The notes under the pieces were generated by a model, which was not told where the DNA came from, ran no database searches, and saw only the letters and a list, made by a program, of their open reading frames with translations. From a virus, in IMG/VR virus record IMGVR_UViG_3300030119_000874, positions 1-27,087 of that record: a stretch of 27,087 nucleotides of DNA; one strand, 5' to 3'. Position numbers and translations under genes: made by a program. Of the stretch, positions 4,265 through 14,221 are shown piece after piece (positions within the stretch are counted from its first letter, which is position 1; each line of letters begins with the position of its first letter).

Positions 4265-4678
4265 ATGGAATTAGTCTTACCTTACCCACCGTCGGTGAAT
4301 CACTACTGGCGACACTTCCGGGGGCGAACGCTCATCAGCCGTCAAGGTCGTGCGTATCGACAGCAGGTCAAAACACAGTGCCAGGGGATGGGCGGCCAGC
4401 CACCTCGTGATGGTCGTTTGGCCGTGGCGATGGATGCGTTTCCACCGGATCGACGCAGACGCGATCTGGACAACATTCAGAAAGCATCACTCGATTCGAT
4501 GCAGCATGCAGGCATCTATCTTGATGATTCGCAAGTGGACATGTTGGTTGTGCAACGTCGCCTCCCGATCCCCGGTGGCCAACTTGTCGTGCGAATCCAA
4601 GAGTACCCACTTCATCGTTGCCCGTTGTGCGGTAGTCCGATGTCCAGCCTTGAAAGTGAATACATCAATGACAACTAA
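4265..4678 (+). CDS. rusA: RusA-like Holliday junction resolvase
   Basis: Protein of 137 residues with the N-terminal LPYPPSVNHYWRH typical of RusA and the catalytic pattern DRRRRDLDN...K...LD...DDSQVD: Asp67, Asp69, Lys73, Asp87, Asp88 and Asp92 match the conserved metal-binding and catalytic positions of E. coli RusA. It would cut four-way junctions made during recombination or replication. A G-rich site precedes the ATG. The C-terminus carries an extra HRCPLCGSP (a single CxxC) not needed for the fold; two such peptides could share a zinc in the dimer, which is speculation. The end overlaps the start of the ParB-HTH gene by 11 nt. Confidence 0.9.
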   Translation: MELVLPYPPSVNHYWRHFRGRTLISRQGRAYRQQVKTQCQGMGGQPPRDGRLAVAMDAFPPDRRRRDLDNIQKASLDSMQHAGIYLDDSQVDMLVVQRRLPIPGGQLVVRIQEYPLHRCPLCGSPMSSLESEYINDN

Positions 4679-5648
4679 AACCCAGACACTCAAGATCGAT
4701 CAAATCCGTATCGATGGTGGCACGCAACCACGTGTGGCTATTGATGAAGATGTCGTGGTCGAATATGCCGACCTGTACGTTGAAGGTGTCGATCTGCCGC
4801 CCGTCACTGTTTTTCATGACGGTTCAACCTATTGGTTAGCTGATGGCTTCCATCGCTATTGGGCCAGCAAACAAACCGAACGTGAAGCGATTGCGGTTGA
4901 TGTCCAACAAGGCACACGCCGCGATGCGATCCTTTATTCAGTCGGTGCCAATGCGACGCATGGTCTGCGTCGGAGCAATGCAGATAAACGCAAAGCCGTG
5001 TTGACCATGTTGCAGGATGATGAATGGTCCCAGTACTCGGATCACGAGATTGCCAGACAATGCAACGTGACGCAGCCAACTGTCGGTCGACACCGCGCCT
5101 CACTAAAACAATTTATTAGTGAGAACACACCGGCGACCGATCAAACAGCCCCCCAACCCGAATCCTCACTAAAACAATTTATTAGTGAGGATGGCTCAAA
5201 GTCGACTCAAATCGCTGAAAAATCTACTTCCAAGCTACCACAGAATGATGGCAGCAGCCTGCCATCCCAACAGCGTACCTACAAGACCAAGCATGGCACC
5301 GTTTCCAGCATGAAAACGGGCAAGATTGGTCGCACGTCTAAGTCGAAAACATCCAAAACGCCGCGTTTTGGCAAAAACGCGTATCGTCCCAAAGCCTGTC
5401 ACAGTGAAGACGGCCCCGTTCCCATGCGGGCCATCTCGTTACCTCTGAAAAATCCCATCCAAGCAGCCCGGAGCATGATCAGCATTTACGGCGATGACTA
5501 CATGCGCCAGGTTGCAACTGAACTGAATCGAATTTTCCAATCCCAGAAAGGACTCTCAAATGATTGCACAGCCCACGAACCACACGGAACCGCAGATTCA
5601 GACCACCTTCATGAACGTCACACCGGACATTGCCAGCCAGTGGCTTGA
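4668..5648 (+). CDS. ParB-like protein with helix-turn-helix domain
   Basis: Protein of 326 residues. The N-terminus is a ParB/Srx-type domain (KIDQIRIDGGTQPR, then LADGFHR at 57-63). Residues 103-147 hold a helix-turn-helix (DDEWSQYSDHEIARQCNVTQ, then PTVGRHRASL). A long basic linker with RTYKTKHGT and KIGR follows, a layout common in phage ParB-like regulators. ATG 4668 is chosen because the upstream frame lies inside rusA; there is no strong ribosome site, so coupling to the rusA stop is likely. The octapeptide SLKQFISE occurs twice, at 145 and 167, because a 25-nt palindrome is duplicated in the gene. The last 30 codons overlap the next gene by 89 nt. Role: DNA-binding regulator or partition-like protein. 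Confidence 0.8.
   Translation: MTTKTQTLKIDQIRIDGGTQPRVAIDEDVVVEYADLYVEGVDLPPVTVFHDGSTYWLADGFHRYWASKQTEREAIAVDVQQGTRRDAILYSVGANATHGLRRSNADKRKAVLTMLQDDEWSQYSDHEIARQCNVTQPTVGRHRASLKQFISENTPATDQTAPQPESSLKQFISEDGSKSTQIAEKSTSKLPQNDGSSLPSQQRTYKTKHGTVSSMKTGKIGRTSKSKTSKTPRFGKNAYRPKACHSEDGPVPMRAISLPLKNPIQAARSMISIYGDDYMRQVATELNRIFQSQKGLSNDCTAHEPHGTADSDHLHERHTGHCQPVA
5099..5189 (+). repeat. Duplicated 25-nt palindromic element inside the ParB-HTH gene
   Basis: An identical 25-nt segment occurs at 5099-5123 and 5165-5189, 66 nt apart and so in the same frame. Each copy is an inverted repeat with arms CTCACTAA and TTAGTGAG around 9 nt. In the protein it reads SLKQFISE twice, straight after the helix-turn-helix. 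Identity at every base, silent positions included, suggests selection on DNA or RNA, or a recent duplication. Confidence 0.85.
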
Positions 5649-6390: not shown

Positions 6391-8141
6391 TACAGGCTTG
6401 TGCCCAACAACCTGTGATCACCCTGCGCCCGTATCAGGCCGAGGCGGTGGACGCTGTGTACGAGCATCTGCGCTGTCGGGATGACAACCCCTGTGTTGTC
6501 ATCCCGACAGCTGGGGGCAAGACACCCATCATGGCGACCATCTGCCGTGACGCTGTGTCGAAGTGGGGTGGTCGCGTGCTCATTCTGGCCCACGTCAAGG
6601 AATTGATCGAGCAGGCAGTGGACAAGCTTCATGCGATGGCACCGGATCTGTGGTATCGAATCGGGTGCTATTCTGCGGGGCTCAAGAGCCGGGATACGGA
6701 GCATGACATCATTGTGGCTGGCATTCAATCGGTGTATCGCAAGGCTGCGGAACTGGATCGTTTTGATCTCATCCTTGTGGATGAATGCCACATGCTCCCA
6801 CCCAATGGTGAGGGGATGTACCAGCAGTTCCTCAACGAGGCGAAGATCGTTAATCCCAATGTGCGCTTGATCGGTTTGACGGCCACACCGTATCGCATGA
6901 CCAGCGGCACCATCTGTGGCCCAGCCCCGGAACATCTGCTTAACCATGTGTGTTACGAGGTGGGTGTTCGTGAGTTGATTGCTCAAGGTTACCTGTGCCC
7001 ACTCAAGACCAAAGCAGGCAGGCGTAAGGCGGACACATCAGGATTGCACATCCGTGCCGGTGAATTCATTGCTGGTGAAGTCGAAGCCCTGATGGACGAT
7101 GACTCGCTGGTTCATTCAGCTTGTCGGGAAATCGTTGAGCAGACAAAAGATCGGCATTCGGTTCTGATCTTTGCTTCAAGCGTGCAACATGCCCAGCATG
7201 TGCATCGCGTCCTGAGTGAGATGGGCCATGAATGTGGATTTGTCTGCGGTGACAGTTCGGGCATCTTCCGTGATGACATTCTACGTCGGTTCAAAGAAGG
7301 TGATCTCAAGTATCTGGTCAACGTCAATGTACTGACCACCGGCTTCGACGCGCCAAACATTGATTGTGTCGCACTGCTACGTCCAACCAATTCTCCAGGA
7401 CTTTATTACCAGATGCTGGGTCGGGGATTCCGACTGCATCCGGCCAAGACCAACTGCCAGGTGTTGGACTTCGGTGGCAACATATTGCGGCATGGGCCAG
7501 TGGATGCCTTGCAGATCAAAGACAAATCGGATCGGAAAAGCAGTTCCGAAGCACCAGCCAAAGAGTGTCCCAACTGCCAGGCATTGATCCATGCGTCATA
7601 CAGTATCTGCCCAGATTGTGGCCATGAGTTCCCACCACCGGAGCGAGACAAGCACGATGGTAGCGCTTCGACAGCAGGTGTGCTATCCGGTGAAGTAACT
7701 GAAACCGATTACGACGTGTCGTCAGTGTATTACAGCATCCACACCAAACGTGGTGCGCCACCCGAACATCCCAAAACCTTGCGTGTCGATTACCGCTGCG
7801 GATTCAACGAATACCACAGCGAATGGATCTGTGTCGCCCATCCCAAAGGCAGTTATGCCTGGCAAAAAGCCAGTACATGGTGGCAGGCGCGATCCAATGA
7901 ACCCATGCCCGACACCGTGGAACAGGCAGTCGAACTGGCTGAAGCCGGTGCCTTGGCCCAACCATTATCCATCACCGTGCGTTCCGTCACCGGCGAAAAA
8001 TTCGACCGCATTACCAATTACGAATTGGGATCCATTCCACCGCGCGTGGACGGTAGCGATGAACGTGAAACGGTAGCTAGTACGACATCGCCCGATCAAC
8101 CGTGGACCGAATGGCCCGATGACGATGACATTCCTTTTTGA
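6387..8141 (+). CDS. SF2 DEAD/DEAH-box helicase with zinc ribbon and SSB-like tail
   Basis: Protein of 584 residues. The Q-motif region is LRPYQAEAVDAV (13-24), motif I PTAGGKTP (40-47), motif II DECH (132-135), motif III TATP (165-168), motif V LTTGFDAPNID (316-326) and motif VI QMLGRGFR (342-349). After the helicase core a zinc ribbon has Cys394, 397, 408 and 411 (CPNC and CPDC). The last 40 residues are disordered and acidic and end in PDDDDIPF, almost the same as the C-terminal tip of bacterial SSB. It would unwind DNA, perhaps branched intermediates or the origin. The TTG start is fixed by an excellent ribosome site. It lies in one operon with the recombination genes. Confidence 0.9.
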   Translation: MIQACAQQPVITLRPYQAEAVDAVYEHLRCRDDNPCVVIPTAGGKTPIMATICRDAVSKWGGRVLILAHVKELIEQAVDKLHAMAPDLWYRIGCYSAGLKSRDTEHDIIVAGIQSVYRKAAELDRFDLILVDECHMLPPNGEGMYQQFLNEAKIVNPNVRLIGLTATPYRMTSGTICGPAPEHLLNHVCYEVGVRELIAQGYLCPLKTKAGRRKADTSGLHIRAGEFIAGEVEALMDDDSLVHSACREIVEQTKDRHSVLIFASSVQHAQHVHRVLSEMGHECGFVCGDSSGIFRDDILRRFKEGDLKYLVNVNVLTTGFDAPNIDCVALLRPTNSPGLYYQMLGRGFRLHPAKTNCQVLDFGGNILRHGPVDALQIKDKSDRKSSSEAPAKECPNCQALIHASYSICPDCGHEFPPPERDKHDGSASTAGVLSGEVTETDYDVSSVYYSIHTKRGAPPEHPKTLRVDYRCGFNEYHSEWICVAHPKGSYAWQKASTWWQARSNEPMPDTVEQAVELAEAGALAQPLSITVRSVTGEKFDRITNYELGSIPPRVDGSDERETVASTTSPDQPWTEWPDDDDIPF

Positions 8142-8152
8142 AAGATTAGCTT

Positions 8153-9298
8153 ATGAATACAACATGTCTTGAAAACAATCCCGCTGTCCTCGACGCGTCT
8201 TTGAGCGTTGTTATTGATGATGAATTCCAGAGCCTTATTCCTCCGTTAACGGACGAGGAACTCACTGGCTTGGAAGAGAATCTGTTGCGCGACGGCTGTA
8301 TCGATCCTCTGATCGTGTGGGCGGAACAATGCATTCTGCTGGATGGTCACAATCGCAAAGCCATCTGTGATCGGTATGGCATCGATTATGAATTGCATAC
8401 GGTCAGTTTGCCGGATCGTGCAGCTGCTGCGGACTGGATCGACACCCATCAATTGGGGCGACGTAATTTATCACCTGAACAAATGAGTCTGCTGCGTGGG
8501 CGACGATATAACCGGCTGAAAATGCCACGTGGCGGAGACAGACGAAGTGATTTTTCAAAGGACCAATGTGGTCCTTTGAAATCTGCTGGGAAATTGGCAG
8601 AGGAACATGGCGTTTCACCAACGACACTTAAACGCGACGGACGATTCGCAGATGCCGTGGACCGACTTGATTTACAGCGTGAAATCGCCAGTGGACAGAT
8701 CAAGCCTGCTCGCAACGAAGTGGTGCAGGCAGCGCGTTCCCTGCCTGAGAATCCAACGCCATCGCAAATCCAGCAAGCACGCGAGTCGGTGACCAAACCT
8801 CATGTGGCCAACAACACTGGCGACAACGAATGGTATACCCCGGCACAATACATCGAGCGTGCAACGGATGTGATGGGTGGGATCGATCTTGATCCAGCGT
8901 CCTGCGTTGCAGCCAACAAGGTCGTCGGTGCGACGCATATTTACACGGCAGAAGATGATGGCTTGCAACAAACGTGGCGTGGCCGTGTGTTCATGAACCC
9001 ACCATACGCTCAACCGCTGATCCAACAGTTCTGTGACAAACTCGTTGAAGAATTTAAGTCCGGCAATGTCACACAATCCATCGTCCTGGTGAACAACGCA
9101 ACAGAGACCAAGTGGTTTCATGCATTATTGTCCGTCGCATCGGCAGTGTGCTTCCCCGTTGGCCGTGTGCGTTTCTGGCACCCAGACAAAACCTCCGCGC
9201 CATTGCAGGGGCAGGCAGTGTTGTACATTGGCAACAACATCGATGGATTCACCAACGCGTTCGAAGACTTGGGGGATGTGTTCTATGCTGCCAAGTAA
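8153..9298 (+). CDS. ParB-like domain fused to Dam-type adenine methyltransferase
   Basis: Protein of 381 residues. Residues 15-100 are a ParB-like domain (LTGLEENLLRDGCIDPLIVW, ILLDGHNR at 61-68). Residues 140-170 are a helix-turn-helix (SAGKLAEEHGVSPTTLKRDG). Residues 224-381 match the DNA N6-adenine methyltransferase family of phages: DNEWYTP (224-230), IDLDPAS (244-250) for AdoMet binding, and catalytic FMNPPY (280-285). It would methylate adenine in a short site, protecting phage DNA or marking the origin, with the ParB-HTH part giving targeting. The ATG has only a weak site (GAAAG). A 29-nt perfect palindrome lies in the gene just before the HTH codons. Its end overlaps the next gene by 14 nt. 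Confidence 0.85.
   Translation: MNTTCLENNPAVLDASLSVVIDDEFQSLIPPLTDEELTGLEENLLRDGCIDPLIVWAEQCILLDGHNRKAICDRYGIDYELHTVSLPDRAAAADWIDTHQLGRRNLSPEQMSLLRGRRYNRLKMPRGGDRRSDFSKDQCGPLKSAGKLAEEHGVSPTTLKRDGRFADAVDRLDLQREIASGQIKPARNEVVQAARSLPENPTPSQIQQARESVTKPHVANNTGDNEWYTPAQYIERATDVMGGIDLDPASCVAANKVVGATHIYTAEDDGLQQTWRGRVFMNPPYAQPLIQQFCDKLVEEFKSGNVTQSIVLVNNATETKWFHALLSVASAVCFPVGRVRFWHPDKTSAPLQGQAVLYIGNNIDGFTNAFEDLGDVFYAAK
8553..8581 (+). repeat. 29-nt palindrome inside the ParB-Dam gene
   Basis: TTTCAAAGGACCA at 8553-8565 is followed by 3 nt and its exact complement at 8569-8581. It lies within the codons for DFSKDQCGPLKS, immediately before the helix-turn-helix. It could be a DNA-binding site or a very stable mRNA hairpin. 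Confidence 0.85.
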
Positions 9299-12615: not shown

Positions 12616-12800
12616 TAACCGAAACGCATGCCCTGTATCGCCACACGTTGGCGCCTGTGGCGTCTGAGCTTCGGGCGTTGTATGGGTGTAGCCAAGGCCG
12701 AGATCGGCCACAGACGGCGACCAGGCAATGGTTCCTTCCCCCTAAGGACCTTTTCGATGGCGGCGGAACGAGCCACATTATTAGGCACAGTTTGTTGTGA
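12612..12800 (+). CDS. Doubtful small ORF
   Basis: 62 codons from a GTG that overlaps the previous stop as GTGA, which is the only argument for it. The predicted peptide has no recognisable motif. The interval also holds a hairpin (CGCCACA 12639-12645 with TGTGGCG 12656-12662) and the near-palindrome GGCCGAGATCGGCC at 12696-12709, so it may instead be a non-coding or decayed segment. Confidence 0.25.
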   Translation: MITETHALYRHTLAPVASELRALYGCSQGRDRPQTATRQWFLPPKDLFDGGGTSHIIRHSLL

Positions 12801-12850
12801 ACGTGCCGCAACATTTTCAGCAATTTAACCAACAGTCGTATGGAGATTTT

Positions 12851-14221
12851 ATGACCGCAACTCAGGACATCGTCACTTCCAATTTCAAGGTCGAGCTTCG
12901 CAAGATCGAGGACGTCAAGCCCTACGAACGTAATCCACGTCTCAATGACAAAGCCGTGGATGCCGTGGCCGCGTCACTGTCGGAGTTTGGATTCAGGCAG
13001 CCTATTGTCGTGGATGAAGACGGTGTGATCATCGCAGGCCACACGCGCTGGAAAGCTGCCAAGCAACTCGGCCTAATCAAAGTGCCGGTGCATGTCGCCA
13101 CTGATCTGACACCCGAGCAGGTTCGCGCGTATCGCCTGGCTGACAACCGCACCGGTGAACTCGCCGAGTGGGACATGTCGATCTTACCTATTGAACTCAA
13201 CGATCTGCGTGAAGGTGGATTCGACATGGACATTCTGGCCTTTGACGAAGAGGAACTTGGCAAGCTCATCAATGAAGCCCAAGGTGTGTCGGAAGGTTTA
13301 ACCGATCCTGATTCGATTCCCGAGCCACCCGATGCTGCGACTACCCAACCCGGTGACATTTGGGTGTTGGGCAACCATCGTTTGATGTGCGGTGACAGCT
13401 CATCGCCGGAGGATTTGGACCGCCTGTTGGATGGCGCAACTATTGATCTGTTTTCCAGTGATCCGCCGTACAACGTGAAAGTTGAGCCTCGCAGTAACAC
13501 CGCTATAGCAGCGGGTTTAAGCTCATTTGGAGATAAGAAAACCCAGCTTCATCACCAAAGTTTTGACAAAGCACGTGGCGCCACCGACGGCAAAAAAGCC
13601 AAGCAAAAAATGCGGGCCAAGGATCGCCCCTTGGCCAACGACTTTGTCAGTGACGAGGATTTTGACAACATGCTGCTGGCCTGGTTTGCCAACGCGTCAC
13701 GTGTCATGAAGCCCGGGGCGTCGTTCTACATCTGGGGCGGTTATGCCAATCTTGGCAACTATCCTGCTCCGATCAAAGCTGCGGGACTCTACTTTTCACA
13801 AGGTGTGATATGGGATAAGCAGCATCCTGTTCTTACCCGCAAGGATTTTATGGGGGCTTTTGAAATTTGCTTCTATGGCTGGAAAGAGGGCGCAGGTCAC
13901 CATTTCTACGGGCCAAACAATGCTACCGACCTATGGCATGTGAAAAAGGTCAATCCACAAGCCATGGTGCATTTGACGGAGAAACCTGTCGAGTTGGCTG
14001 TTCGCTGCATCCAGTATTCATCCAAGCCCGGTGAGAACGTTCTTGACCTCTTCGGTGGCAGCGGTTCAACCCTCATGGGCTGCGAGCAGACCGACCGTCA
14101 TGCATTTCTGATGGAGCTAGACGAATTGTACTGCGATGTCATCGTCAAACGCTGGGAGGCATTCACCGGAAAGCAAGCCAAGCGCATTGCAGCCAAACAG
14201 TCACCCGCTACACAAGCATGA
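12851..14221 (+). CDS. ParB-like domain fused to N4/N6 DNA methyltransferase
   Basis: 456 residues. Residues 12-100 are a ParB domain (ELRKIEDVKPYERNPR, IIAGHTRWKAA, RAYRLADNRTGELAEWD). Residues 165-440 are a DNA methyltransferase with DPPY at 204-207 before FGGSGST at 401-407, the beta-class order, for N4-cytosine or N6-adenine. GDIWVLGNHRLMCGDS is the typical bridge between the two parts. ATG 12851 is chosen over an upstream TTG-type start because of GGAGA at 12842-12846. It probably modifies phage DNA against host restriction. It is the last plus-strand gene before the minus-strand block and faces hepT tail to tail with a 56-bp gap. Confidence 0.9.
   Translation: MTATQDIVTSNFKVELRKIEDVKPYERNPRLNDKAVDAVAASLSEFGFRQPIVVDEDGVIIAGHTRWKAAKQLGLIKVPVHVATDLTPEQVRAYRLADNRTGELAEWDMSILPIELNDLREGGFDMDILAFDEEELGKLINEAQGVSEGLTDPDSIPEPPDAATTQPGDIWVLGNHRLMCGDSSSPEDLDRLLDGATIDLFSSDPPYNVKVEPRSNTAIAAGLSSFGDKKTQLHHQSFDKARGATDGKKAKQKMRAKDRPLANDFVSDEDFDNMLLAWFANASRVMKPGASFYIWGGYANLGNYPAPIKAAGLYFSQGVIWDKQHPVLTRKDFMGAFEICFYGWKEGAGHHFYGPNNATDLWHVKKVNPQAMVHLTEKPVELAVRCIQYSSKPGENVLDLFGGSGSTLMGCEQTDRHAFLMELDELYCDVIVKRWEAFTGKQAKRIAAKQSPATQA

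Follow-up and report, generated by a model that had tools for sequence, protein, structure and literature searches.

Palindromes beside the HTH codons of phage ParB-like genes as putative, co-evolving cognate sites of the encoded proteins

In Bacillus subtilis, parS-359 is one of several sites of nearly invariant sequence. It is located inside the parB (spo0J) gene (PMC4442127). Sites internal to the gene of the binding protein are also described for replication initiators: ori lambda lies inside the O gene of phage lambda (PMC3985674, PMC7466680), and oriV of repABC inside repC (PMC9040568). In ParB and Noc, half-site preference depends on a small number of residues in the DNA-binding domain, as worked out by mutation for two specificities, parS and NBS (PMC7383237). 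Phage fusions of a ParB fold with a DNA methyltransferase are likewise known and are prophage-associated (PNAS 2025 survey, PMC12704722).

The locus analyzed here lies in a virus record of 27,087 bases, referred to below as the window. Like Spo0J/ParB with parS-359, it pairs a ParB-type HTH protein of the same overall fold with a palindromic site within its own gene; unlike parS-359, the phage site lies by the HTH codons in the linker, occurs only once, and varies among close relatives along with the recognition helix. With lambda O/ori and repC/oriV it shares the mid-gene position of a cis site of a phage or plasmid protein, but those systems combine an iteron-repeat origin with an initiator, whereas the phage gene has one palindrome, a ParB-type fold and no sign of an origin; the single palindrome at 8553-8581 does not meet the lambda O-type criterion of several iterons in an initiator gene. 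In contrast to the switching between ParB and Noc specificities, dozens of natural helix-site pairs are found, each in or next to one gene. The protein resembles the surveyed fusions in joining a ParB-CTPase-type fold to a methyltransferase and differs from them in that its N domain is out of reach of Pfam ParB_N and the fused domain is Dam-type (PF05869). The word stem 'palindrom' is absent from the text of that survey (PMC12704722), and open-licence full texts gave no account of ParB-like genes in which variable, HTH-adjacent palindromes and the HTH evolve together. This absence is weak evidence, because only open-licence papers were covered. Sites within the binder's own gene are thus already known, and a family-wide co-evolving cassette appears to be undescribed.

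The host gene and its palindrome

The gene and the parts of its product are as follows:
8153..9298, + strand: ParB-like/HTH/Dam-methyltransferase gene, 381-aa product (from the ORF, Pfam, AlphaFold and structure matches)
Residues 1-123 of the product: ParB-like N domain
8522..8575, + strand: linker, residues 124-141, disordered (low-confidence in AlphaFold), housing most of the palindrome
8553..8581, no strand: perfect palindrome TTTCAAAGGACCA-ATG-TGGTCCTTTGAAA, 13-nt arms and 3-nt centre, putative cognate (parS-like) site
Residues 142-215: HTH and helical domain, with the HTH motif LAEEHGVSPTTLKRDG starting at codon 148 (nt 8594)
8618..8665, + strand: recognition helix of the HTH, residues 156-171 (P156 T157 T158 L159 K160 R161...)
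Residues 225-348: Dam-type N6-adenine methyltransferase (Pfam PF05869, E 4.8e-15, above the curated cut-off)

A replication/recombination module surrounds the gene (RusA, ResIII helicase, Prim-Pol/DUF3987). The Pfam match satisfies the criterion for a Dam domain. The ParB fold was missed by sequence search alone and seen by structure: a Pfam search did not find ParB_N in the protein, and a PDB-sequence profile search with it returned nothing useful. From the single sequence, AlphaFold modeled the full-length protein poorly (pLDDT 41); with an alignment of 63 relatives, residues 1-216 gave a model with a mean pLDDT of 88.6. The top Foldseek matches of this model were pNOB8-like ParB-N, Noc, Spo0J and ParB (E 1.5e-4 to 9e-4), KorB was also among its solved-structure matches, and comparison with VIA gave Z 9.8 with an rmsd of 5.1 over 191 residues. 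The modeled protein has an N domain of the ParB type and, after it, an HTH domain, and so meets the criterion for the ParB superfamily. Residues D64, G65, H66 and R68 together with Q100, R104 and N105 are invariant in the 63 relatives and occupy plausible Box II and Box III places, with no nucleotide-binding data. In the linker, pLDDT averages about 49 at residues 131-140 and is below 50 at 130-132.

The earlier note described 13-nt perfect arms around a 3-nt centre just before the HTH, and re-reading of the sequence found this to be exact. The palindrome occupies codons 134-143, encodes FSKDQCGPLK at the border of linker and HTH, and stops four codons upstream of the HTH motif. When the complete 27-kb window was shuffled 60 times under a first-order Markov model, arms of at least 13 nt arose twice, so arm length alone is modest evidence; the palindrome by itself is not compelling, and the case therefore rests on its position and conservation in homologues. 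No second copy was found in the 27-kb window. The cores of two related phage contigs, of 39.9 kb (L002) and 20.8 kb (L003), have no extra copies there and are single-copy as well. The canonical 16-bp parS (TGTTTCACGTGAAACA) is absent from the window, where its best match has 5 mismatches.

Linker palindromes across relatives and their match to helix 3

Five viral homologues share 72-86% identity with the 8153-9298 product. Three of them carry linker palindromes that differ in sequence from one another and keep their symmetry, namely TTTTCAAATCCTCA-AAA-TGAGGATTTGAAAA in L002, ATTTCAAAGGCTCA-AAA-TGAGCCTTTGAAAT in L003 and GCAACCGtgCCTCA-AAA-TGAGGatCGGTTGC in L004. The relative at 72% identity (L005) has no palindrome and no CTCANNNTGAG site anywhere in its locus. 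Compared with the window, the palindrome-bearing relatives are 87-95% identical in the N domain, 82-92% in the Dam domain, 8-67% in the linker and 65-83% in the HTH, and the HTH of L005 falls below this last range. A further homologue (L091) has an HTH identical to that of the window and nearly the same palindrome. Judged from sequence comparison, the divergence looks cassette-like, and swapping of a whole cassette is not distinguished from in-place co-evolution of site and helix. Nine homologues occur on one chromosome of Planctomycetes bacterium syqfu (CP087563), and those with a linker palindrome represent several helix-and-palindrome types, as expected if co-resident elements avoid cross-talk. 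Absence or randomness of the palindrome in close homologues would have spoken against the idea of a self-encoded site; the palindrome persists, with compensated changes, in close and distant homologues alike.

To extend the comparison, loci were gathered from viral contigs, genome contigs and whole genomes, yielding 194 non-redundant homologues, and the 96 nt upstream of the HTH were scanned for dyads (match +1, mismatch -2). A linker dyad scoring at least 8 was present in 47% of these genes, whereas the 1595 same-size control windows from other parts of these genes and the synonymous-codon shuffles of the linkers each gave 0.9%. At a score of at least 10, the respective values were 25%, 0.1% and none; the first set, of 109 genes, gave the same picture. 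In about 38% of homologues, no dyad in the linker scores 6 or higher, and many of those without a linker dyad also lack a flanking palindrome in the DNA examined. The dyad centre fell on the first base of a codon in 83 of 97 cases, the other 14 being in other phases or even-centred. The form GGACA-NNN-TGTCC, accompanied by an EKT or AKT helix, is read in phase 0 (SGQNV, SGQNVHF) or in phase 2 (VDKMS, VDNLS or similar), and GGAAACAATTTCC, accompanied by VSDRTVKNAE, occurs in two reading phases (L300, L351). Mismatches within dyads were A.C in 36 instances and G.T in 12. Because reading frames vary and A.C mismatches exceed G.U, what is conserved is neither a peptide nor an RNA hairpin.

A helix-site code was tabulated from 106 genes with a dyad score of at least 7, a selection made before tabulation, with half-site bases counted outward from the 3-nt centre; the code is derived from the same alignments that it describes. 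The positions of the window helix coupled to the half-site are P156, T157, K160 and R161, which in the AlphaFold model share one helix face in the first turns (i, i+1, i+4, i+5). Residue 161 was consistent with base 2 in 106/106 genes (R with G in 93/93, N with T in 9/9, S with T in 3/3, A with C in 1/1). K or R at residue 157 went with C at base 4 in 68/68 genes, as against 3/38 for other residues, and E at residue 160 went with G at base 5 in 11/12, while K, R or Q there went mostly with C. The leading mutual-information pairs were HTH column 13 with site position 2 (z 24.5), column 9 with position 4 (z 19.6) and column 12 with position 5 (z 14.8), and a scan of all columns ranked 161-base 2, 157-base 4 and 160-base 5 top for their bases. 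Over bases 2-6, the best N-domain column explained at most 0.23 of the site entropy and the best HTH column 0.33 to 0.95. Outer base 8 tracks an N-domain column near the linker (z 16.9), so the outer arms are not accounted for by the helix alone. Base 7 tracks a residue five upstream of the HTH, near the palindrome's own codons, and this correlation may be trivial.

The coupling survives control for relatedness. In a partial Mantel test, helix 3 and site were correlated given the N domain (r=0.50; exceeded in 0/500 permutations, of which the largest reached 0.12), and the N domain was not correlated with the site given helix 3 (r=-0.04). Among pairs with an N-domain distance above 0.6, the mean site distance was 0.10 for equal and 0.46 for different helix codes. 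On a maximum-likelihood tree of the N domain, the two main residue-base pairs change 10 and 22 times, and independent contrasts agree in 7/7 (p=0.016) and about 12/12 cases (p=0.0005); contrasts for three control columns in the same HTH were not significant. A homologue of the Bacteroidota set (L680), only 34% identical to the window protein, shares with it both Thr at the T157 position and the core GGACCA-NNN-TGGTCC. A lack of covariation with the HTH, which the earlier note had named as grounds for refutation, is not what is observed, the covariation being strong and specific to helix residues.

Where the linker dyad is missing, as it is mainly in relatives of the Bacteroidota set, one to three strong palindromes often stand right after the stop codon. 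These flanking palindromes provided the sole hold-out test of the code and fit it at base 2 by residue 161 in 27/33 and at base 4 by residue 157 in 27/31; several of the failures resemble AT-rich terminators. The 34-kb record of plasmid pEMTOL05 has a single GGACA-NNN-TGTCC, which falls within the gene that follows parA; the 298-aa product of this gene is too short for a methyltransferase fusion, and a separate replication initiator is annotated near parA. A ParA-type Walker motif was detected near 45/148 cellular loci vs 2/77 viral loci, and none was found in the 27-kb window, although the contig may be incomplete. Partition proper is therefore unproven for the phage, and the window element is not filed as a ParABS system, since the criterion of a linked ParA is not met. 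As a separate observation, several Bacteroidota relatives (L142, L154, L694, L143, L696 and others) have two or three long palindromes, with arms of up to 41 nt, within about 230 nt past the stop codon, with one core per helix type. These arrays are candidate parS arrays of uncharacterised partition systems.

Interpretation of the element and competing readings

The computational evidence establishes a symmetric, conserved, helix-matched and frame-independent DNA element in or beside a gene whose product has a ParB-type fold. That helix 3 and the half-site co-evolve is a strong indication, in the absence of a binding assay, that the HTH would recognize the palindrome. We infer with great confidence that the palindrome is the cognate site of the protein of its own gene; that this cognate site has a parS-like or operator-like use is highly probable. 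The proposal that each ParB-like protein carries its own cognate site thus gains support from the persistence of the palindrome, its covariation with the helix and the second family described below, although physical binding has not been shown.

In the mechanism we propose, the two HTH domains of a ParB-type dimer would read the two half-sites, as ParB reads parS. The site would be placed in the codons of a disordered linker, which leaves its DNA free to change; because the palindrome adjoins the recognition-helix codons, site and reader would be co-inherited and co-diverge. By analogy with ParB/Noc (PMC7383237) and ParB clamps, binding may load a ParB-type NTP clamp, the function of parS. Clamp loading is an inference, and we regard a role as parS-like loading site as fairly probable. 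The clamp would then mark or handle the phage's own DNA in cis and could possibly carry the fused Dam methyltransferase along it, an inference from the fusion, which suggests cis action in a phage where no ParA is seen. Such delivery of the methyltransferase from the palindrome is put forward only tentatively. Divergence may be driven by avoidance of cross-talk with co-resident related elements, which is again inferred. The full hypothesis holds that mobile-element ParB-like proteins are self-addressed: loading site and helix form one evolvable cassette, the clamp loads in cis, slides the methyltransferase, marks self DNA and separates co-resident relatives, and the code predicts the sites. 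We consider it possible and would not yet call it probable.

A large natural set of matched helices and DNA sites, in which pairs are marked by gene position, makes the recognition code of ParB-type HTH domains readable, and a simple helix-base code, if true, would let sites be predicted from sequence. The arrangement would explain how specificity changes in phage and plasmid ParB-like proteins without loss of the site, and it offers a testable idea for phage ParB-methyltransferase fusions, namely cis action on the encoding DNA. With it, two gene families of one phage would join the short list of genes that hold their own product's site.

The same self-recognition evidence could serve an intragenic operator used for autoregulation only, where the protein, once bound, would stop transcription of the gene that encodes it and would have no centromere or clamp-loading role. 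Neither the window nor the related contigs contain a second copy of the palindrome, a protein bound within the gene would be a roadblock, and a ParA motif is missing from the window and rare near viral relatives; nevertheless, the fold is ParB-type, and the code-matching palindromes past the stop codon in Bacteroidota suit parS and are less suited to repression, which leaves autoregulation alone an unlikely account. Still more doubtful is a role in replication, in which an initiator would bind the palindrome as an origin element, as lambda O does at ori inside its gene. The location within the phage replication/recombination module (RusA, ResIII helicase, Prim-Pol/DUF3987) agrees with it, but a single palindrome takes the place of several iterons, the fold is again ParB-type, and the pEMTOL05 relative has its separate annotated initiator near parA. 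Both accounts require the same self-recognition as a cognate site and differ only downstream of binding.

Readings that dispense with recognition by the protein fare worse. Transcribed into RNA, the arms would pair as a perfect 13-bp stem closed by a 3-nt loop, and the palindrome could then act as a translational or stability element of the mRNA with the protein irrelevant; yet its changes track recognition-helix residues, sites that match the code can also occur beyond the coding region, and the excess of A.C (36) over G.T (12) mismatches fails the G.U tolerance expected of an RNA stem. The hairpin is rejected on these mismatch types, and we give it scarcely any credence. Other genomes are known to contain in-frame palindromic inserts, and a QN-containing motif is common in the linkers, as a conserved peptide with symmetric codons might produce. 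Chance is rejected by the family statistics (47% vs 0.9% and 0.9%), peptide constraint by the codon shuffles (0.9% vs 47%) and by the same DNA being read in different frames, and a mobile insert is disfavoured by the fixed position and by the single copy in the tested records; helix coupling speaks against all three, for which practically no room remains. Separately, the palindrome as a target of the Dam domain is disfavoured, since the pEMTOL05 gene has a like site without the fusion and the coupling is to helix 3.

The first ParB-like gene and further palindromes

A separate family of the same design is represented upstream in the window:
4662..5648, + strand: first ParB-like gene, phrog_1033 'ParB-like partition protein'
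5037..5096, + strand: HTH of its product (SDHEIARQCNVTQPTVGRHR)
5099..5123, no strand: palindrome copy 1, CTCACTAAAACAATTTATTAGTGAG, directly 3' of the HTH codons
5162..5192, no strand: palindrome copy 2, extended, ATCCTCACTAAAACAATTTATTAGTGAGGAT, encoding the repeated peptide SLKQFISE

The sequence TCACTAAAACAATTTATTAGTGA occurs twice in this gene, at 5100-5122 and 5166-5188. The palindromes of the two ParB genes had been called unrelated in sequence, with which we agree, and alike in location relative to the HTH, which holds only in part: both adjoin the HTH, but those of the first gene lie after it, not before. Among 76 relatives of the first gene, a dyad scoring at least 8 follows the HTH in 72%, vs 2.5% of control windows; in an earlier set with a stricter centre, the values were 61% vs 0.8%. 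The outer arms (TCACT or ATCT) are conserved, and the inner bases vary with the HTH. Without correction for relatedness, D or E as the first residue of helix 3 goes mostly with C, H mostly with G and Q mostly with A, and P at the second position goes with A in 12/12. Two ParB-like families of one phage therefore share the design of dyads beside the HTH, placed before it in one family and after it in the other. Some relatives of the first gene are annotated as regulators of the streptomycin operon.

Repeated palindromic units are also seen in the linkers of two homologues of the 8153-9298 gene (L651, L645), for example AGGTGGACAATTTGTCCACCT and AGGTGGACAAATTGTCCACCT in one L651 linker, suggesting intragenic duplication of the site as in the first ParB-like gene. 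A third ParB-like group (L088, L114, L067, L100) has HTHs such as VSHDTIAKAE and VSRDTISKAD, preceded by linkers with even palindromes around CAGAATTCTG, e.g., CGGCCTTGTCAGAATTCTGACAAGGCCG and AACCCTGTGCAGAATTCTGCACAGGGTT. The phage itself encodes a third ParB-N gene (12797-14221), fused to an N6_N4 DNA methylase (PF02195 + PF01555).

Two further palindromes of the window lie outside ParB-like genes. One, with 17-bp arms (GCTGTCGGGATGACAACCCCTGTGTTGTCATCCCGACAGC, 6472-6511), is located in the ResIII/DEAD helicase gene just upstream of Walker A, and of 77 relatives, 38% have a dyad scoring at least 9 at this spot, compared with 1% of control windows. Its arms encode the conserved RDDNPCVVIP, and no claim is therefore made without a codon-shuffle control. 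The other is a GC-rich intergenic hairpin, CTCCCCGCCCCTGGGAGTGTTCAGGGGCGGGGAG, located at 2832-2865 between the PDDEXK and AAA genes.
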